The notes below the pieces were generated by a model. That model worked only from the letters and a program-made list of their open reading frames with translations. It had not been told where the DNA came from and made no database searches. Made by a program: the position numbers and the translations under genes. From Collinsella sp. An268 (GTDB taxonomy: Bacteria; Actinomycetota; Coriobacteriia; Coriobacteriales; Coriobacteriaceae): 64,000 nt of DNA. Below, piece by piece: positions 41,157 to 51,667 of this stretch (its first letter is position 1; each line of letters starts with the position of its first letter). The stretch is from NCBI RefSeq assembly GCF_002159765.1, contig NZ_NFJH01000004.1:62001-126000 (forward strand). The letters run 5' to 3'.

Positions 41157-44100
41157 TCAGAGCGCGATCTCGCCGCCCGCCGGGGTGATGGGACGGGCTA
41201 TTCGGCTAAGCATATCACGAGCGGACGCATCGAGCGCCCAGCTTCTAAACTGGGTAAACGCCCAGCGCGTGCGCAGGCCCTCGAGGTAGCGGGTCGACGC
41301 GGTGAGCGCCATGTGGCCGGGGTTCTCGCACATCTCGATGCGCCGGGTATCCTCAAACCCCGTCACGCGGGTGAAGCCGAGCTCCTCGAAGATGCGGATG
41401 CCGCTCGCGACGGCACGCTCGTCCACCTGCTCGCGCGCGTCGATGGCGCGGCACATGCTCGCGATGTCGAGGTCGCTCGCGCTGAAGGCCCCCTCGCCCG
41501 TCCTGCCGCGATGGCTCCGCCACATGGTCTGGAGCGCGCGGTAGATGACGATGAGCTCGCCGCGCTCGGGGGCGGCCGCCTCGAGCAGGTGCTCGTTGAT
41601 GCGGGCGTCGCGCGCCGAGTACATGAGGTGGATCCGGGCGGGCGCCCCGTCGCGCCCGGCCCGCCCGCTCATCTGGTTGAAGGCCGTGGCCGAGAACGGC
41701 ATGTGGTAGAGCACCACGTGCCGGATGTCCGGCAGGTTGACGCCCTCGCCAAACGCGGAGGTCGACACGATGCAGGTGAGGTCGCCCGCGCGGAACGCCT
41801 CCTCCACCCGCGTGCGGTCGGCGCGGGCGAGCCCCCCGTTGTAGAAGGCGATGGCGCCGCCGAGCTCGGGCACGCGCTGGCGGAGCGTGCGGGCGAGCGC
41901 GACCGTCTGCTCGCGCGAGTTGACGTACACGACGCACTTCTCGCCCGTCGCCACGATGGAGACGAGCCGGTTCTCGCGACTGGGCAGGTTGCGGTCGTCC
42001 TCGAGGTCGAGGTTGGGTCGGTCCGCATCGTCCACGATGGCGCGGGCGGTGCCGAGGGTCTCGGTGATGCGGTGCGCGCACGCTGCATCGGCCGTGGCAG
42101 TGACGGCGAGCACCGTCGGGCGGCCGAGGGCGGCGAGCACCTCGGGTAGGTCGAGATAGGCGCTGCGCTCGCCCGCGGGCGCGGCAGCGATATGGTGTGC
42201 CTCGTCCACGGCGACAAAGCCCACACGCCGGGCGGCGGCGAAGCGCTCGCGGTGGATCGAGAGGAACTCGGGAGTCGTCAGCACGATGTCGAGCGCGCCC
42301 TCGGCGAGCGCGCCGAAGATCTGCGCGCGCGTCGGCTGGGGGGTATCGCCCGTGAGCACGCCCACGCCGATGCCCCACGCACCCAGAAGGCGCGCCAGAT
42401 GGAAGGCCTGGTCGGCGATGAGGGCGCGCAGGGGGTACACGAAGATGCTCGCACGGCCGTTGAGGACGGCCTCGCGGGCGGCGTGCACCTGGAATACGAG
42501 CGACTTGCCGCGACCCGTCCCCATGACGGCGAGCGCGCTCTCGCCCCGACCGAGGGCGTCGAGAGCGTCTGTCTGGGCGGGATGCGGGGAGCTGCCCCCG
42601 ATGAGGGCGTGGATGAGCGAGCGCGTGAGCTCGGTGTACGAAAGGCCCGCGAGGGTCGCCCTGCGCCGGCGCCCCGCGGCGGCGGGCGTGAAGATCGCGG
42701 CGGGCTCGTCCGGCGCTGCGGCCGGGGCGGGCGACGAGGGGGCGGCACCGGCGCCGTCCACGGCAGCCGCCACGGGCGCGCCCACCGGCCCAGCCGGCCC
42801 CTCGGCATCCGCCGCGTCGTGCCGAAGCACGTCCTTTACCATGAGCTTGGGCTTGACGCGGCCCTGCCAGCGCTCGGCCACCGCCTCGAAGACGATGTCG
42901 ACCACGCTGTCGCATGCGCAGAGCGCATCGGCGTCTGGTGCGCGGAACATGATGGCCGCCACACTCGAGATGCCGTCGGTCGCCGTGAAGCGCACATGGT
43001 CGCCCGTGCGGCCCACGCAGGAGCGGTCCGCCATAGTCACGCCGGTCGCCGCGAGCAGCGGCACGCGGTTGCCCTGGCCGAAGGGCTCGAGGCGCGCGAT
43101 CTCCTCGATGGTCTCGATGGTGAGCTCGCCCAGGTCCACCGTCGCGGCGATCTCGCCCGTGTCCTCGAAGGCCTCCTCCGGGAGCTCGGACAGCACCTCG
43201 TCGAGGCGCTCGCGCAGCGCCGGCAGGTTTGCCGCGGGCAGCGCGACGCCCACCGCGCCCGCGTGCCCGCCGAAGCGCGTGGTGAGGTCGGCGCACCGCT
43301 CGACGGCCTCAAACAGGTTGACCGTGCCCACCGAGCGTCCCGAGCCGCGCGCGACGTCGCCCTCGATGGAGAAAAGCAGCGTGGGCACGTGGTAGCGGTT
43401 GACGATGCGGCTCGCCACGATACCCTTGACACCCTCGTGCCAGCCCTCGCCGCCCACGACGATGACGCGGCCGCCCGCATACGTCTCGCCCACGCGGGCG
43501 AGCGCATCCTCGGTGAGCGCGGCCTCGATGTCGCGGCGCTCCTGGTTGATGGCCTCGAGCTCCGCGGCGAGCCGCCCGGCCTCCACGGGGTCGCGCTCGA
43601 GCAGCAGGTTGAGCGCGAGGGCGGGGTCGGCCATGCGCCCGGCGGCGTTGAGGCGCGGGATGAGCGAGAACGAGAGGCCGTCCGCCGTGATGGTGGCGAG
43701 GTCCGCGCGGGCGAGCGCCGCCAGCGCGATGAAGCCCGGGCGCGCGGTGGCGCGCATGTGCGCGATGCCGTCTGCCACGAGCGCGCGGTTCTCCGGCGTG
43801 AGCGGCATCATATCCGACACGGTGCCGAGCGCCGCCACCTCGGTCAGACCGCGCCAGAGATCGGGGGCGCCGCGGCGCTCTCCCAGCGCCTGCACGAGCT
43901 TGAGCGCCACGCCGGCACCGGCGAGCTCGCGCGAGGGGCCCTCGGCCGCGAGCTTGGGGTCGGTCAGGGGCACGCCCCGGGGCACCATGTCGGCGGGCTC
44001 ATGGTGGTCGGTCACCACGAGGTCGATGCCGCGCGCCGTGAGGTAGGCAACCTCGTCGCGGGCGGCGATGCCGTTGTCCACCGTCACGATGACGTCGGGC

Positions 44101-44522
44101 GCGCAGGCGGCGATGACGCGGTCGAGCGCGGCCTCGGTGAGTCCGTAGCCCTCGTCGAAGCGATGCGGGATGAACGGGGTGACGTTACCGCCGAGCGCCC
44201 GCAGGGCCTCGGTAAGCAGGCAGGTCGAGGTGATGCCGTCCACGTCGAAATCGCCGAAGACCGCAATTGCCTCGTGCGCGTCGAGCGCGCGGTCGAGCCG
44301 CGCGACGACCTCGTACATACCCGGGATGATAAGGGGGTCGGCCCAGTCGCGCTCGAGCGAGGGGGTGAGGAAGCGCCGTCCCTCCTCGACGGAGGCGATA
44401 CCGTGCGCCACCATGATGCGGGCGACGAGCGGAGTGATGTTGAGTGCGTGCGCGAGCTCGGTGGCGAGCGCGGGGTTTTGGGGAGCTACCGACCAGCGGT
44501 GGCTCGTTTTGAGCGATGCCAT
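41157..44522 (-). CDS. recJ: RecJ exonuclease fused to a RecQ-like helicase
   Basis: An 1121-residue fusion. Residues 1-570 are RecJ, the 5'-3' single-strand exonuclease: GDFDVDG (about 90-96) and TDHHEPAD carry DHH metal ligands, and GGHAGAVGVALP is the DHHA1 motif; an OB-like region follows. A Pro/Ala-rich linker at about 575-625 leads into an SF2 helicase: Walker A MGTGRGKS (about 670), motif II DEAHH, AVTATADA, STSAFGEGVNLPD, and QMSGRAGRDG as motif VI. Helicase and nuclease are usually separate RecQ and RecJ proteins acting together in RecF-pathway end resection. It is upstream of relA. Confidence 0.92.
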   Translation of the reverse strand: MASLKTSHRWSVAPQNPALATELAHALNITPLVARIMVAHGIASVEEGRRFLTPSLERDWADPLIIPGMYEVVARLDRALDAHEAIAVFGDFDVDGITSTCLLTEALRALGGNVTPFIPHRFDEGYGLTEAALDRVIAACAPDVIVTVDNGIAARDEVAYLTARGIDLVVTDHHEPADMVPRGVPLTDPKLAAEGPSRELAGAGVALKLVQALGERRGAPDLWRGLTEVAALGTVSDMMPLTPENRALVADGIAHMRATARPGFIALAALARADLATITADGLSFSLIPRLNAAGRMADPALALNLLLERDPVEAGRLAAELEAINQERRDIEAALTEDALARVGETYAGGRVIVVGGEGWHEGVKGIVASRIVNRYHVPTLLFSIEGDVARGSGRSVGTVNLFEAVERCADLTTRFGGHAGAVGVALPAANLPALRERLDEVLSELPEEAFEDTGEIAATVDLGELTIETIEEIARLEPFGQGNRVPLLAATGVTMADRSCVGRTGDHVRFTATDGISSVAAIMFRAPDADALCACDSVVDIVFEAVAERWQGRVKPKLMVKDVLRHDAADAEGPAGPVGAPVAAAVDGAGAAPSSPAPAAAPDEPAAIFTPAAAGRRRRATLAGLSYTELTRSLIHALIGGSSPHPAQTDALDALGRGESALAVMGTGRGKSLVFQVHAAREAVLNGRASIFVYPLRALIADQAFHLARLLGAWGIGVGVLTGDTPQPTRAQIFGALAEGALDIVLTTPEFLSIHRERFAAARRVGFVAVDEAHHIAAAPAGERSAYLDLPEVLAALGRPTVLAVTATADAACAHRITETLGTARAIVDDADRPNLDLEDDRNLPSRENRLVSIVATGEKCVVYVNSREQTVALARTLRQRVPELGGAIAFYNGGLARADRTRVEEAFRAGDLTCIVSTSAFGEGVNLPDIRHVVLYHMPFSATAFNQMSGRAGRDGAPARIHLMYSARDARINEHLLEAAAPERGELIVIYRALQTMWRSHRGRTGEGAFSASDLDIASMCRAIDAREQVDERAVASGIRIFEELGFTRVTGFEDTRRIEMCENPGHMALTASTRYLEGLRTRWAFTQFRSWALDASARDMLSRIARPITPAGGEIAL

Positions 44523-44702: not shown

Positions 44703-46013
44703 CTAACGGCGCGGCGGCATGCCAAACCAGCATTGGACGGTGTCGATCCGCCGAAGCCCCAACTTGCGCTGCAGTGCCTTCGACGCCTCGTTGTCGAGCG
44801 CTACGTGGCAGTACGGGATACGCCCTGCCGCCATAAACGTGTCGATGAGGGCCGCCTCGAGCGCTTGCGCATAGCCGCGGCGGCGCGCCTCGGGAAAGAC
44901 CTCCAGCATGCCCATCGACGCCTCGTCGTGCTCGCCGATGAACCCGACGAGCGCCCCGGAGGCATCGAATCCGCCGTATATCCAGCCGCGCTCGAGATGG
45001 TCCTCGATCTCCCCATGGCTGAGCAGCGCGTAGTGCGCTTCCACCGTATCGATGTCCCCCGGCCCGAGGGGAGCGATGGTGAAGCCCTCGGGCGGGGCAA
45101 TGGCGCCCGTTGCGAGCGGCGAGGCGTCCGCGCCATACGCCCAGAGCTCATAGCGGCCGGGGTCGAGCCCCTCAAAGGCGGCACCGGGGGCGAAGACCTC
45201 GAGGTACTGCTCATCGCACAGGCTCACCAGTGCGCCGTCGGGCACCATGCTCGCCATGATGCGGGCCGCGCAGCCGTCCACCGGAGCGGCAAAATAGGCG
45301 CCGTTGCGCTTGAAGCGCACGAGCGCGCCGAGGTCGTCGCCCACCGCGAGCACGGTCACGCGTCCGAGCTTGACCGGCTCGGTGATGCTCAGGAAGCGCG
45401 CCGGCTCGGGGTCGCCGGCGAGCAGCTCCCGCACACGGCGGGCGAGCTCCTCCTCAGCCGGCGCAGCGGCGAGGTCGAGCCGCATGACGGCCTCGTCGCG
45501 CACCTCGCCCAAAAGGGGTACGTCGATACCTCGGTCGCAGCGCACGTAGCGAAAGCCCAGGCGCGTCGCCACGCGCGCGGACGCTCGGTTTCCCACATAG
45601 AACCCGAGCCAGACCGTCCGCACGCCCCACGCGCGACGCGCATGGCCGATGAGGGCGCGGGCGGCCTCGGGCATATAGCCGCGCCCCCAGAACGGCCGAC
45701 CCGTCCAATACCCGAGCTCCCGCTCGTCCGCCGCCGCGGCATGCGTGCTCGCCGCGGCGTCCGTGAGGGCGACAGCGCCCACGAGCGTGCCCGCGGCCTC
45801 CCCCGCCTCGCCGGTGCCGCGCAGGCAGACGGCAAAGCTCTCCTTACCGCGCAGCACGTCGCGGATGACATCCCGGCTCTCCTCCACGCTCGCGTGGGCG
45901 GGCCACCCCGCAGCGCTCCCCACCGCCGGATCGCTCGCGAGCGCAAAGAGCGCCTCTGCGTCCGCGTCTTCCCAGGGGCGCAGGACGAGACGCTGCGTAT
46001 TGATGACGGTCAC
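44703..46013 (-). CDS. Double GNAT acetyltransferase
   Basis: A 436-residue protein with two GNAT domains. The first (1-185) resembles RimJ/RimL: RLVLRPWEDADAEALFALA, GRGYMPEAARALI as acetyl-CoA loop, and NRASARVATRLGF. The second (300-436) has EARRRGYAQALEAALID as pyrophosphate loop and NEASKALQRKLGLRR. The middle part is degenerate GNAT-like sequence. The substrates are unknown. It starts 9 bp after cutC. A GTG or ATG choice does not arise; the N-terminus fits the family. Confidence 0.88.
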   Translation of the reverse strand: MTVINTQRLVLRPWEDADAEALFALASDPAVGSAAGWPAHASVEESRDVIRDVLRGKESFAVCLRGTGEAGEAAGTLVGAVALTDAAASTHAAAADERELGYWTGRPFWGRGYMPEAARALIGHARRAWGVRTVWLGFYVGNRASARVATRLGFRYVRCDRGIDVPLLGEVRDEAVMRLDLAAAPAEEELARRVRELLAGDPEPARFLSITEPVKLGRVTVLAVGDDLGALVRFKRNGAYFAAPVDGCAARIMASMVPDGALVSLCDEQYLEVFAPGAAFEGLDPGRYELWAYGADASPLATGAIAPPEGFTIAPLGPGDIDTVEAHYALLSHGEIEDHLERGWIYGGFDASGALVGFIGEHDEASMGMLEVFPEARRRGYAQALEAALIDTFMAAGRIPYCHVALDNEASKALQRKLGLRRIDTVQCWFGMPPRR

Positions 46014-46022
46014 GCGCGCCCC

Positions 46023-46706
46023 CTACGCAACCTTGACGATCTTGGTGCCGTGGCACTCCCCCACGCCGAGGCGCTCGGCCACCGCGTCCACGTTCTCCCA
46101 CGTGATGCCCGCGCCGGGCAGGATGATGAGGCGCCCCGCGGCGCGCTCGATGTAGGCGGCGAGGCGGTCGAGGTTGCCCTCGATGGGCGTGCCGGCGACG
46201 CCGCCGTGCGTGAGGATGCGCGTGAAGCCGAGCGCCGCGATCGCATCGATGGCGTCGAGCTGGCGCTCCTCGGGCAGCGCGTCGAAGGCCATGTGGAAGG
46301 TCATGTCCACGGCCTCGCCGCGCTCCGCGGCGGCCTCGCGGGCGATGGCGCAGATGCGCTCGAGCGCGGCCTCGTCGAGCCCGAGCGCGCCCGCGGCGTC
46401 CCTCTTGAGGCACCCGAGCACGATGCCGTCCGCCCCGAGGGCGAGCGCGATGCGCGCGTCGGTCTCCATCATCTGGACCTCGACCTCGTCGTACACGAAG
46501 TCGCCGCCGCGCGGGCGCACCATCGCCATCACGCGGGCGCCCCGGGCGTGCGCGTACTCGACCGTGGCCTCGATGACCCCCATCGAGGGCGACGTGCCGC
46601 CGACGGCCAGGTTGTCGCAGAGCTCGATGCGGCGCGCGCCCGCCTCGATGGCGGCGGGCACGTTGGTGTAGTTCTCGGCGCAGAACTCGCGCAGAAGGTC
46701 GGACAT
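46023..46706 (-). CDS. cutC: CutC family protein
   Basis: TIM-barrel protein of 227 residues. The family was named for copper homeostasis, but a direct role in copper handling is doubtful. Family marks: REFCAENYTNVPAAIEAGA, RIELCDNLAVGGTSPS, VMVRPRGGDFVY-like segment (read as MAMVRPRGGDF), DGIVLGCL, and GRLIILPGAGI. The ATG at 46704-46706 has TTAGGAG upstream; the longer open frame is antisense-like and ignored. Confidence 0.9.
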   Translation of the reverse strand: MSDLLREFCAENYTNVPAAIEAGARRIELCDNLAVGGTSPSMGVIEATVEYAHARGARVMAMVRPRGGDFVYDEVEVQMMETDARIALALGADGIVLGCLKRDAAGALGLDEAALERICAIAREAAAERGEAVDMTFHMAFDALPEERQLDAIDAIAALGFTRILTHGGVAGTPIEGNLDRLAAYIERAAGRLIILPGAGITWENVDAVAERLGVGECHGTKIVKVA

Positions 46707-46791
46707 GGGCGCTCCTAACGTCGCGTACGGTTCACGCTGCCCATTGTGGCACAAAACGCGCGCGCGGCGCCTGCGCGCCCACCGATATCCC

Positions 46792-47973
46792 CTACGAGAG
46801 CGTGCCCGCCTGCTCCAGGAGCGCCGCCTTGAGGTCGCTCTCGATGCGGCGCATGCGCCCCTCGGCGTCGGCGCGGGCGGCGCGGCCCTCCTGCTGGATC
46901 CGGATCGTCTCGTGCAGCGTGTCGATGAGGCGCTGGTTGACCTCCTCGAGCGTCTCGATGTCCACGCTGCCGCGCTGCGTGGTCTCCTCCGCCGCAACGG
47001 CGCCCTGCTGGAGCGCCTCGGCGTTCGCGCGCAGGAGCTTGTTGGTGGTGTCGTCCACGCTCTTCTGGAGGTCGAGGGCCGCGCGCTGGTTGGCGAGGCC
47101 GAGGGCGATCACCATCTGGGACTTCCAGAGAGGGATGGTCGTCGAGATGGTGGTGTCGATCTTCTCGGAGATGCTCTTGTCGGCGTTCTGCAGGAGCTTG
47201 ATCTGCGGCGCGAGCTGCAGGCTCACCACGCTCACGCGGTCGAGGTCGTCGAGGCGCTTCTCGAAGCGGTCGAGCTTGTCCTTGAAGTCCTTGAGCACCT
47301 GGGCGCCCATGGCGTCGCCCGAGGAGGCCGCCTCGGCCTCGAGCGCGGGCAGCGCGTCGGCGCGGAAGCGGGCGAGGGCGTCCTTGCCGGCCGCGATGTA
47401 GACCTTGAGGGCGCGGTACTGCTCGACGTTGCGCTCGTACATGGTGTCGTACATGGCGATGTCGGCCACCATCTGCGCCTGGGCGCGCTCGAGCTTCTCC
47501 ACCACCTCGTCCACCTGCGGGGCGACCTTCTGGTAGGTGCGGCGCAGCTTGTCGATGCCCACCACCACCTTGCCGATGATGGGGATCTCCTTGATGCCCG
47601 AGAGCTCGGCGCCCTCGACCTCGGCCAGAAGCTCGCGCAGGAGCTCGCCCGCCTCGCCCGTCGCCTTGTTGGAGGTGTGGGCGAGCACGTTGTCGGCGAA
47701 GTCGGAGAGCGAGCGCTGCGCGTCGCGCGCGTAGGTGCTCTCGATGCCGGCCTTGGTGAAGTCGATGGTGCGCGCGATCTCCTGCGCCCGCCGCTGGTCC
47801 TCGGGGCTCAGCGCGACCGCCGGCGCCTCGGGCTCGGCGGGGGCGGCTGCGGGGGCGGCGGCGAGCGTCGCCCCCTGCGAGGCGGCGATGTCGGCGAGGC
47901 TCGGGATGCGCGCCGCGGGCACGGCCTCCTCGGGCGCGACGACCTCGGTCGGTACCTCGTTCGGTTCGGTCAT
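46792..47973 (-). CDS. TelA family protein (toxic anion resistance-like)
   Basis: A 393-residue soluble, largely helical protein of the TelA family. The first 60 residues are an Ala/Pro/Glu-rich linker. The core has the family segments IKEIPIIGKVVVGIDKL and MYDTMYERNVEQYRALKVYI, then IPLWKSQMVIALGLANQR. TelA was linked to tellurite resistance, but the molecular role is not known. It is the last gene of a four-gene minus-strand cluster with vWA, XpaC-like and solute-binding-like proteins, 60 bp after the latter. Confidence 0.92.
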   Translation of the reverse strand: MTEPNEVPTEVVAPEEAVPAARIPSLADIAASQGATLAAAPAAAPAEPEAPAVALSPEDQRRAQEIARTIDFTKAGIESTYARDAQRSLSDFADNVLAHTSNKATGEAGELLRELLAEVEGAELSGIKEIPIIGKVVVGIDKLRRTYQKVAPQVDEVVEKLERAQAQMVADIAMYDTMYERNVEQYRALKVYIAAGKDALARFRADALPALEAEAASSGDAMGAQVLKDFKDKLDRFEKRLDDLDRVSVVSLQLAPQIKLLQNADKSISEKIDTTISTTIPLWKSQMVIALGLANQRAALDLQKSVDDTTNKLLRANAEALQQGAVAAEETTQRGSVDIETLEEVNQRLIDTLHETIRIQQEGRAARADAEGRMRRIESDLKAALLEQAGTLS

Positions 47974-48033
47974 CTCGGACTCCTCTCGCTTGGCGTTTGC
48001 ACGCGGTGTCGGTATCTGCCGGTCGACGGGCGG

Positions 48034-49122
48034 TCAGCCGCCCACGACCTCTATCAGGCGCTGCATGGCGGCGGGCGCGGGCAGCTCCACCGCCGCGGGC
48101 ACGCGCTCGGCGATGCCCGCGACCCCGAAGCGCGTCGCGCTGTCGGTGCCCAGCTGCGAGGCGCCGCGGAACCCGTGGCGCTCCCACGCGAGCCTCTGCA
48201 CCTCGTCGGACGTTATGAAATCGCTCAGGAGCTCGCCGTTCTCCGTGAGCGCCATGACCACGTGGGTCGACCAGACGGTGGGCGTCGTGTAGGCCACCAC
48301 GAGGTCGTCGGCGACCTGCGCGAACAGGTCGGGCTCGTTCACGGCGAGGTCGAGCACCTGGCTCTCGTAGCCCACCATCATCGGCTTGGACCCCTCGCCC
48401 AGGGTGAGGAACTGCCGGAAGGAGTCCTCGGAGCTCGTCTCCATCCAGCCCGACTTCTGGAAGATCGCCTGGATCTGCGCGGCATCGCGCTCGACGGTCT
48501 CCACGGTCGCGGGCTGGCCGCCGGCGAGCGAGTTGGCGATGAGCGCCGCCCACTCGTTGCCCGAGTTGGACTGCGCGGGGTCGGTGCTGTCGATGCGGAA
48601 CTGACCGTAGCCCGCGGTGTAGCCGAGGTCCGCCCAGGTCTTGCTGGCGAGCATCGCCTGCACGGCCGCGTCGACGTCGAGGAGGTAGACGTCGCCGTCT
48701 TGGGACATGACGCCGGAGCCCACGAGCGCCTCCGCCACGTCGCGGTACGTGTAGACGACGATGGGCGAGTTGAGCGCGATTTCCTCGCTCAGGGTCTCGA
48801 TTCCCCGCTCCCCGCCGTATGCGACGGCCGCCTGCGACGAGGGGAAGAGGTAGTCCATGCCCTCCGTGGAGGCCTCCATCATGGCGAGCGAGCCGGCCTT
48901 GCGGTAGGACACGTCGAGCCCCGCCTCGGCGGCGAGGCGGCCGAACTCCTCGTCCTCGAAGAGCGAGATCTTCTCGCCACCCAGATAGCCCGTGACCTCG
49001 ACCGGGTCCACGGGGGCCGCGGGCTCGGGCTGCGCCGCCCGGAAGACGAGCACGCCGCCCACCACGGCCACGGCCGCGAGCACGCACAGAAGGCCTATGA
49101 TCTTCCCCTTCGAGAGTCTCAT
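48034..49122 (-). CDS. Membrane-anchored solute-binding-like protein
   Basis: A 362-residue protein with one N-terminal membrane helix (about residues 8-27, LLCVLAAVAVVGGVLVF) and an extracellular periplasmic-binding-protein-like fold. The motif STDPAQSNSGNEW matches a ligand-loop found in sulfate/molybdate-type binding proteins, and it recurs in the vWA protein of the same cluster. It overlaps the XpaC-like gene by 4 bp (ATGA). GGGGAAGGGGAG precedes the ATG at 49120-49122. No permease is adjacent, so it probably does not feed an ABC importer. Confidence 0.82.
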   Translation of the reverse strand: MRLSKGKIIGLLCVLAAVAVVGGVLVFRAAQPEPAAPVDPVEVTGYLGGEKISLFEDEEFGRLAAEAGLDVSYRKAGSLAMMEASTEGMDYLFPSSQAAVAYGGERGIETLSEEIALNSPIVVYTYRDVAEALVGSGVMSQDGDVYLLDVDAAVQAMLASKTWADLGYTAGYGQFRIDSTDPAQSNSGNEWAALIANSLAGGQPATVETVERDAAQIQAIFQKSGWMETSSEDSFRQFLTLGEGSKPMMVGYESQVLDLAVNEPDLFAQVADDLVVAYTTPTVWSTHVVMALTENGELLSDFITSDEVQRLAWERHGFRGASQLGTDSATRFGVAGIAERVPAAVELPAPAAMQRLIEVVGG

Positions 49123-49787
49123 CGTCTCCCCTTCCCCCGCGCCGGGTCGCCCGCAGCCGGCGCCGCCGCGGCGTCGGCGGGCGCGTCGGGCGCGTATCCG
49201 TCCATCTCGATCAGGCGCTGGATGGCCTCGGACGAGGCCTCGACCTCCGTCGCCTTGGCGCCCGTCGCGCGGGCGAGCTCCCCTTGCGCGGCGCCCGAGA
49301 GCGCGCAGAGGCCCTCGATGGCGTCCTCGCGCGCGCCCGCCACGAGCTCGGGCGTGCTCAGGCGCTCGACGCCCAGGTAGCCGTCGAGCATGCGGACGCA
49401 CTGGTCGCGGTAGGTGGAGAGGAAGTGCGCGAGCCTGCGGTAGGTGGAGGGCTGGGCCTCCACGCAGGCGACGAGCGCCTCGATGTCGCGCAGCAGGTCG
49501 TCGATCTCGCGGAGCACCGCGGCGTCCGAGATCCTCTCGCGCCGCGCGGACACGGCGCGCATGAGGTCGCGCGCCTCGTCGATCCGCCGCGTCGCTGCCT
49601 CGCCGTCGGGCAGCATGCTCGCGATGACGCCGCCGAGCTTGCGCTCGGGCTTGAGGAGCTGACCCACCCCCAGGTAGAGGAGGGCCGCGGCGGCGAGGCC
49701 GGCGACGATGCCCGCCACCCCGCCGAGCGCGACCACGCAGGCCACGCCCGCCGCGACGCCTATGACCGCCCCGAGAACGTACCCCAT
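49119..49787 (-). CDS. XpaC-like membrane protein
   Basis: A 222-residue protein with one or two hydrophobic segments in the first 45 residues, rich in Gly and Ala, followed by a helical cytoplasmic domain. The layout and the context of TelA fit the XpaC (5-bromo-4-chloroindolyl phosphate hydrolysis) family: LPDGEAATRRIDEARDLMRA and STYRRLAHFLSTYRDQCVRM. XpaC's biochemical role is not understood; xpaC and telA are neighbours in many Gram-positive genomes. It starts 9 bp after the vWA gene. Confidence 0.78.
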   Translation of the reverse strand: MGYVLGAVIGVAAGVACVVALGGVAGIVAGLAAAALLYLGVGQLLKPERKLGGVIASMLPDGEAATRRIDEARDLMRAVSARRERISDAAVLREIDDLLRDIEALVACVEAQPSTYRRLAHFLSTYRDQCVRMLDGYLGVERLSTPELVAGAREDAIEGLCALSGAAQGELARATGAKATEVEASSEAIQRLIEMDGYAPDAPADAAAAPAAGDPARGKGRR

Positions 49788-49796
49788 CGCGCGCCC

Positions 49797-51527
49797 CTAG
49801 TTATAGCCCTTGACCTGGCGGAAGACCGCGGCGAGGTCGCCCGTCCTGCCGTCGAAGGTGCGCCCGTTGGTGAGCGCGGAGAGGTCGTCGAGCTGCGCGG
49901 GGTCGGCGGAGCCGAACATGATCGAGAACACGGGGACGTCGGTCCCGGAGGCGTCGTAGGCCCCCTCGAAGCGCGCGCGGTTCTCCGTCTCGGACTGGCC
50001 GTCGGACATGAGCGCGATCGCCACGGTCCACCGTCCCTCCGCCTCGGCCTGCTCAGCCAGCTCGAGAGCCGCCTCGAGGGCCGCATAGATGTCCGTCCCG
50101 CCCACGGGCTCCCGGGAGCGCGCGGCGTCGAGCACAGGCGCGGTGTCCGCACCCTCGGCGACGACGGCCTCCCCCGGCCCGTCAGCGAACGGGATGAGCA
50201 CGTTGACGTCGCCCTCCGTCGGCTGGATGAGCGACGCCGCCGCGAGGGCGGGGTCGAGCGCCTGCTCGAGGCCCGCGACCACGCCGTCCTTGCCCTCGCC
50301 GTACATCGAGCCGGAGTAGTCCACCACCCAGATGGAGTACGAGGGCTTCTTGAGCGCGGTCTGGTAGAGGGTGAGCGCCTCCCCGATCACCTCGCCCGCG
50401 GGGAGCGGGATCGACTTCAGCACGCTCGCGTCGTCCACGATGCCCCAGTCGGGCGAGAACGCCGCCTGCACCTCGGGGTCGTCCGCGTGCAGGATCTTGC
50501 CGCCGAGGCCGCAGCGGCGCCCCACGCGCTCCATGGCGAGCGTCGCCTCGTCGTCGGCGAGCGCCTGTTGGAAGGCGAGGAACGCGTCCTCCACGGCCGC
50601 GTCCTGACCGCGGTCCACGTAGGCGAGCGGACTGTCGGAGACGGCGATGCCGTCCGCGGGGTAGATGGCCATGAGGGGCTCGGCACCGGCCTCCTCGAGC
50701 TCACGGTCAGCCTGCGACACGAGCGACTCGTAGTTCACCATGGCCTGATGGGCGCCCGGGTCGGCGACGACCATCTCCTTCAGCCAGTCGGACGAGCCCG
50801 ACGAGCGGTCCACGCCCGAGAGCAGCGCCGCCACGCGGCCGGTGAGCTCGGCATCGGCGAGGTCGTCGGCGGTAAGGGGCCCGTCCGAGCCCGAGAGCGC
50901 CGTCAGGAACGCCAGGTAGGCGGATGCGCCGCTGTTGGACTGCGTGGCCGAGGTCATGGCGAAGGAGAGCTCGCCCGTCTCCACCGCATCGAGGATCTCC
51001 GCCGTGGTGGGCGACGCCGTGGCGCCGGACGCGTCGACCCAGCCGAGCTCCTCGGCACGGCCGCGCGCGATGCCGAAGACCACGGGCGTGGTCGAGGTGC
51101 TCTGGGCGTTTCGGGTGATGTGCCCCGTGTCGCCGAGCGATATCCACATCGAGGACGCGGGCCACACGGCGTCGTAGTCGGCGCCGCCCGCCTCGAGGAC
51201 GGAGCGGATCTCGAGCGAGCCCATGTAGTGCATCTCGACCGTCACACCCGCCTCGCCGGCGGCGTAGGCGATGGCCTCTGCCGCCTCCTTGTTCTCGGAG
51301 CCCGAGGCGATCTTCAGGGTGAGGTCCGTGCCGCCCGCGGGGACGAAGCGCTGCGCGCCGTCCACCTCCTGGATGTCGACCGCCGCCTGCGCGGGCGCGC
51401 CCCCGTCCGGCGCCGGCTCCACCTCGGGAGCCCCCGCGCCCATGCAACCGGCGAGACCTGCGGCGAGCACGAGGACCGCGAGGGCGGGTACGATGCGCCG
51501 CGCGAGGCGCGAGAGTCGGGCGTGCAT
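49797..51527 (-). CDS. Lipoprotein with solute-binding-like and von Willebrand A domains
   Basis: A 576-residue exported lipoprotein: signal peptide with lipobox LAGC at about residue 28. Residues 60-340 form a periplasmic-binding-protein-like domain (TLKIASGSENKEAAEAIAYA, and SATQSNSGASAYLAF, which parallels the motif in the anchored partner). Residues 390-576 form a vWA domain with a MIDAS site: DYSGSM, a threonine in GGTDIY, and LMSDGQSE. Such domains bind protein partners through a metal ion. It is the first gene of the TelA cluster. Confidence 0.88.
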   Translation of the reverse strand: MHARLSRLARRIVPALAVLVLAAGLAGCMGAGAPEVEPAPDGGAPAQAAVDIQEVDGAQRFVPAGGTDLTLKIASGSENKEAAEAIAYAAGEAGVTVEMHYMGSLEIRSVLEAGGADYDAVWPASSMWISLGDTGHITRNAQSTSTTPVVFGIARGRAEELGWVDASGATASPTTAEILDAVETGELSFAMTSATQSNSGASAYLAFLTALSGSDGPLTADDLADAELTGRVAALLSGVDRSSGSSDWLKEMVVADPGAHQAMVNYESLVSQADRELEEAGAEPLMAIYPADGIAVSDSPLAYVDRGQDAAVEDAFLAFQQALADDEATLAMERVGRRCGLGGKILHADDPEVQAAFSPDWGIVDDASVLKSIPLPAGEVIGEALTLYQTALKKPSYSIWVVDYSGSMYGEGKDGVVAGLEQALDPALAAASLIQPTEGDVNVLIPFADGPGEAVVAEGADTAPVLDAARSREPVGGTDIYAALEAALELAEQAEAEGRWTVAIALMSDGQSETENRARFEGAYDASGTDVPVFSIMFGSADPAQLDDLSALTNGRTFDGRTGDLAAVFRQVKGYN

Positions 51528-51637
51528 GGCGAGCCTCCCAACGACGAGGGCCGCCGGGCGGCGGCCGGACAGGATTGGGCCATTCTAGCAAACGCGTGTC
51601 AGCTGAATGTAAGCTGCGCCCCCGGTACCTTATGGGG

Positions 51638-51667
51638 CGGGCGCCCCGCGCGATCGCGGGGCGCCCG
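51638..51667. terminator. Perfect GC hairpin between liv and vWA operons
   Basis: CGGGCGCCCCGCG-CGAT-CGCGGGGCGCCCG, perfect 13-bp arms, about 70 bp after the livF stop codon on the minus strand. There is no U tract, but stem strength suggests a transcription end. Confidence 0.75.

Follow-up and report, generated by a model that had tools for sequence, protein, structure and literature searches.

Within the window, a stretch of 64,000 nucleotides of Collinsella sp. An268, four genes follow one another on the minus strand: the gene of a lipoprotein that combines an SBP domain with a vWA domain (51527-49797, 576 aa; here V), an XpaC gene (49787-49119, 222 aa; X), the gene of a membrane-anchored SBP (49122-48034, 362 aa; S), and a TelA gene (47973-46792, 393 aa; T). 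The tight spacing to which the initial annotation had pointed is exact at every junction, with 9 bp between V and X, a 4-bp overlap of X and S, and 60 bp between S and T. Upstream, between the end of livF and V, there is a perfect hairpin with a 13-bp stem (51638-51667, minus strand; fold z-score -2.5) that is not followed by a T run. Between this hairpin and V, a candidate promoter of the V-X-S-T unit can be seen by eye on the minus strand at 51582-51612, composed of TTACAT, a 19-bp spacer and the extended -10 element TGC-TAGAAT (TGCTAGAAT, -10 hexamer at 51587-51582), and it is regarded as weak because a consensus promoter scan listed none upstream of V. A terminator-like hairpin with the T-rich tail GCGTTTTGTG lies 3' of the TelA gene (46778-46760, minus strand), and its folding is no better than that of shuffled sequences. 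Beyond it, also on the minus strand, a protein with two GNAT acetyltransferase domains adjoins CutC (44703-46013 and 46023-46709), and a 1121-aa protein encoded at 41157-44522 reads as a fusion of a RecJ-like DHH exonuclease and a RecQ-like helicase.

V has a signal peptide with a lipobox (Cys28), followed by an SBP domain of type II (about residues 66-350) and the vWA domain (about 395-576). The latter matches the Pfam model vWA_2, contains a full MIDAS (D403-x-S405-x-S407, T478, D509) and finds the vWA fold in structure searches (4fx5, Z 23.6); the MIDAS-bearing vWA domain of the initial annotation thus holds, as all five residues are intact here and invariant in 74 of 74 V orthologues. No SBP model of Pfam matched the N-terminal domain of V from the window genome; SBP_bac_11 (PF13531) is matched by 54 of the 74 orthologues. 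In the AF2 model of V (pLDDT 92, pTM 0.89), this domain is predicted to adopt the two-lobed type-II SBP fold, for which the best matches of the fold search all had Z 21-26, led by a sulfate-binding protein (Z 25.8) and followed by proteins that bind thiamine, sugar phosphate and iron. A lipobox is recognisable in 56 of 74 V proteins, and among the rest some have near-miss lipoboxes while most others have an N-terminal TM helix (mainly in Alphaproteobacteria), so that V, with a lipobox or a TM anchor in most cases, can be taken as membrane-bound.

S has a single predicted N-terminal TM helix, as do 56 of 57 S orthologues. No Pfam model matched S of the window genome, and sequence searches found no significantly related solved structure for S or for TelA, yet hhalign identifies S as a paralogue of the SBP domain of V (99.3%, E 7e-21), with the SNSG motifs aligned to each other. 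It is for these reasons, the AF2 fold, the PF13531 matches and the hhalign result, that a type-II SBP fold is assigned to both the N-terminal domain of V and S. The QSNSG motif, described before as common to the two surface proteins, is indeed found in both (residues 196-200 in V), and SNS(G/A) or a close form of it is present in 89 of 90 V and in 81 of 82 S proteins surveyed; it can be lost in more divergent relatives, such as S of Deinococcus and both SBP-fold proteins of Variovorax. More generally, the invariant residues of the two SBP domains reside in short Gly/Ser-rich loops at helix starts (SNSG, GSSDW, GSE). No ligand is claimed, since the matches of the SBP profile, to HptA and to binders of iron and molybdate, are weak (E 0.01-0.05) and do not agree with one another. 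There are also irregular S genes: Bifidobacterium saimiriisciurei has a second one on the opposite strand near a complete VXST set (L040, 14452-15537), and the S gene of Flavonifractor sp. An100 is present as two separate ORFs (L060, 10230-11296), reflecting a broken gene or a sequencing error.

XpaC, whose gene belongs to the TelA gene cluster and precedes TelA by two positions, begins with a hydrophobic hairpin of two helices (about residues 1-45), followed by a charged helical domain that is predicted to be cytoplasmic. In the window genome it reaches 28.9 bits against PF10112, just below the cut-off of 29.8, and the model is matched by 49 of 55 XpaC orthologues; PDB matches are mainly designed helical bundles and thus uninformative. 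TelA is clearly assigned (308 bits against PF05816, cut-off 30) and is devoid of TM segments in 48 of 48 cases. Its model, a long helical hairpin, is of modest confidence (pLDDT 72, pTM 0.56) and has no specific PDB match; only generic helical bundles were returned (Z at most 12.2), which is below a meaningful level for helical models, and no homology of XpaC and TelA was found (hhalign 0.1%). According to the positive-inside rule, V and S are predicted to be outside, and the XpaC domain and TelA inside.

The four families recur together far beyond this genome. A genome-wide scan seeded with V, in which many of the resulting loci are MAGs, identified loci in about ten phyla, including Actinomycetota, Bacillota, Pseudomonadota, Desulfobacterota, Spirochaetota, Chloroflexota and Planctomycetota. 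In 69 loci, which represent about ten phyla, the sequence extends for at least 3.5 kb downstream of V; X and S are found beside V in 68 of these, and T is found too in 54. The gene order in 90 V loci (neither these counts nor those of the 69 loci are de-duplicated, and a few genomes are counted twice) is VXST in 46, VXS in 23 and SVXT in 12, with single cases of VXSXT, TVXS and others. The V-X and X-S junctions are stop/start overlaps, most commonly of 1 and 4 bp (medians -1 and -4 bp). Including S-T-V-X in Sphaerotilus, Nonomuraea and Variovorax, the full set occurs in at least four orders (VXST, SVXT, TVXS, STVX), and Deinococcus has S-V-X; in the S-T-V-X and the Deinococcus loci the last gene encodes a protein with two TM segments, whose match to the XpaC profile is weak or one of shape only. 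The co-occurrence on which the initial annotation had made its reading depend therefore extends across phyla, with the order of the genes either conserved or permuted. As the same set recurs in such distant lineages, the arrangement is far beyond chance, and the permutation of the order with unchanged content argues for a shared function rather than a mere shared ancestry of the order. V, X, S and T are one real and widespread unit. Two loci are unusual in their composition or surroundings: one has the order V-X-S-X-T, in which the two XpaC genes differ from each other, and looks like a VXS set joined to an XpaC-TelA pair (L022, 8999-11439), and on plasmid 2 of Variovorax sp. SRS16 S-T-V-X has a flotillin/OB-fold pair on one side and a Wadjet JetA gene on the other (L195, 2497-14810).

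In the genus itself, livF lies directly before cutC in seven of eight congeners, with none of the four genes in between, and in the window genome V-X-S-T occupy precisely this livF-cutC site. Seven congeners also share the order livF-cutC-GNAT. Due to the empty site in the congeners, V-X-S-T can be regarded as a discrete cassette, and the Liv ABC transporter upstream as incidental. The nearest congener has a hairpin between livF and cutC without the cassette, and the hairpin at 51638-51667, which is at the same place, is thus probably a terminator-like boundary after livF; the upstream hairpin of the initial annotation exists, with its 13-bp stem, and is better assigned to livF than to the unit. 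The question of a transporter is important also for the function, because the SBP folds resemble transport proteins, TelA is annotated as toxic anion resistance protein, the orf53-telABC locus of Lactococcus has been linked to tellurite tolerance (PMC13109727), and Liv ABC genes are found upstream of the unit in several Coriobacteriaceae. The two SBPs could then feed an oxyanion or another solute to a distant permease or to Liv, and TelA and XpaC would handle toxic anions. This is very improbable, as none of the lineages read has a permease in the unit, livF and cutC are adjacent in seven cassette-free congeners, and outside the Coriobacteriaceae Liv is absent beside the unit, the one exception being a Desulfobulbaceae locus with Liv-like genes (L076). 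Liv is thereby ruled out as partner, and the absence of a permease, from which the initial annotation had started, is upheld, the upstream Liv genes being lineage-specific and flanking an otherwise empty site. In Coriobacteriia, the ABC importers found 5' of the unit differ by lineage (Liv, NMT1/ThiY-like or Opu-like; L018-L030), probably by chance.

Also where TelA is not encoded in the unit, it is usually present in the genome. Among 199 Coriobacteriia genomes, TelA was found in 15 of 15 with V and in 27 of the 184 that lack V (Fisher p = 7e-12, phylogeny ignored). In 20 genomes that have VXS and no adjacent or visible TelA, 19 encode TelA elsewhere, the exception being a Planctomycetales MAG without TelA. 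These distant TelA genes have an XpaC gene within 1.5 kb in 17 of the 19 genomes, and in the other two the matches are cut by contig ends. Because the distant TelA is mostly paired with XpaC, XpaC-TelA looks like the core and V-S like an add-on. The bare XpaC-TelA pair also occurs in Coriobacteriia and Clostridia; a sample of the class Clostridia contained two genomes with S, both with TelA, which are too few for a co-occurrence test. In V-less Coriobacteriia, all 20 TelA genes (L141-L160) have an XpaC gene no more than 1.5 kb away, in several cases on the opposite strand.

The patchy spread of the unit, present or absent as a cassette, is what one would expect also of a defence system against phages, plasmids or bacteriocins, in which V and S would be surface sensors or blockers. 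TelA is found in phage genomes, phage exclusion has been linked to Ter systems, and the Variovorax unit is near a Wadjet gene, but no PADLOC model matched, S is absent from the phage collection searched, and no recurrent defence neighbours were seen among the neighbour clusters of the unit, so that a defence function is rather improbable.

The XpaC-TelA pair as such is known, and it is known from envelope stress. It belongs to the SigW regulon of B. subtilis (PMC3498285) and to the CesSR regulon of L. lactis (PMC3139573), xpaC is part of the LiaR regulon of E. faecium (PMC10269926), and in Listeria the pair is induced by the bacteriocin garvicin KS (PMC12791056). A Listeria telA transposon mutant is reportedly more sensitive to nisin and tellurite (PMC12791056, citing Collins 2010), and sub-membrane structures have been proposed as the product of TelA (PMC7824862). 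HptA provides the precedent of an SBP whose signal goes to a membrane protein and not to a permease (PMC8774646). The initial annotation had read the cluster as an envelope signalling or stress-sensing apparatus around TelA; its envelope-stress part is supported by the Firmicutes regulons (PMC3498285, PMC3139573, PMC10269926, PMC12791056), and its signalling part is what we infer. On the basis of these regulons, the sub-membrane proposal and the HptA precedent, we give about an even chance to the reading that V and S have been grafted onto the XpaC-TelA membrane-stress pair as a front end that senses a ligand outside the cytoplasm, with all four proteins acting as one functional unit. The XpaC-TelA pairs of Bacilli do their work in the absence of V and S, and the way in which they are regulated may therefore not apply to the unit.

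In such a front end, V, lipid- or TM-anchored, and S, anchored by its TM helix, would reside next to each other at the outer surface of the cytoplasmic membrane. The cleft that surrounds the conserved SNS(G/A) helix start would receive a small ligand, upon which one or both of the proteins would close. Guessing from the fold neighbours and the position of the motif, this ligand could be an oxyanion or a phosphorylated compound. Whether it is bound would affect how the vWA domain with its MIDAS docks to a partner, either S or a component of the envelope. Through its one TM helix, S would relay the signal to the TM hairpin of XpaC, and the cytoplasmic helical domain of XpaC would recruit or release TelA, a long helical protein that may act at the inner membrane face. 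Adhesion is typically mediated by vWA domains, and such adhesive domains would suit a scaffold or anchor without any ligand switch, where V and S bind a constitutive envelope component, such as a phosphate-bearing polymer, and pin XpaC-TelA to sites of damage. Faces that bind proteins may be no less conserved than pockets, and the envelope-stress context of the pair (PMC3498285, PMC3139573) as well as the proposed sub-membrane structures (PMC7824862) agree with this, but the invariant Gly/Ser-rich loops (SNSG, GSSDW, GSE) look, judged by their sequences, like a ligand cleft and not like a surface patch; a pure scaffold is considered fairly unlikely.

Compared with the XpaC-TelA pairs described so far (xpaC-yaaN of B. 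subtilis, llmg_1115-telA1 of Lactococcus, lmo1966-lmo1967 of Listeria), in which the same two cytoplasmic-side proteins are associated, the unit adds two extracytoplasmic SBP-fold proteins, one of them with a vWA domain. Ter systems (TerB/TerC/TerD/TerF with TelA) likewise combine TelA with a vWA protein, there TerF or TerY, whereas in the unit the vWA domain is located outside the cytoplasm, in one protein with an SBP domain; a Ter system is excluded for the window genome, in which no TerD (PF02342) match was found, with control genomes being positive. In HptASR of Staphylococcus aureus, an SBP fold signals to a membrane protein without a permease of its own, and HptA is among the fold matches of V (6lkg, Z 23.0) and a weak sequence match to the SBP profile (6lki, E 0.013). 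The unit differs from it in having no histidine kinase or response regulator, and no histidine kinase is encoded by the four genes and their immediate neighbours. PspA/PspC and LiaFSR share the envelope-stress context of the XpaC-TelA pair, but no sequence relation to them was found, and PspA of the window genome is encoded on another contig. From an ABC importer operon the unit is distinguished by the lack of a permease and an ATPase alongside the SBPs. As to MoxR-vWA systems, no MoxR AAA+ ATPase was noted in the 25 neighbour clusters that recur most often, which were read without a MoxR profile.

No literature that joins SBP, vWA, XpaC and TelA was found in a search whose coverage left out most subscription journals, including the 2012 Ter/TelA survey, and within this coverage there is thus no published account of the known pair being joined with V and S. 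It is possible, if still doubtful, that the unit represents a separate class of transmembrane signalling, in which, without the help of a kinase, a permease or a transcription factor, two paralogous SBP receptors, one of them with metal-dependent vWA docking, would pass on their ligand state through the two-helix membrane hairpin of XpaC to a helical TelA scaffold at the inner membrane face. TelA and XpaC have long been tied to tellurite, nisin and further envelope stresses without a mechanism, and the conserved link to two surface binding proteins now offers a concrete and testable handle on the stimulus of XpaC-TelA.
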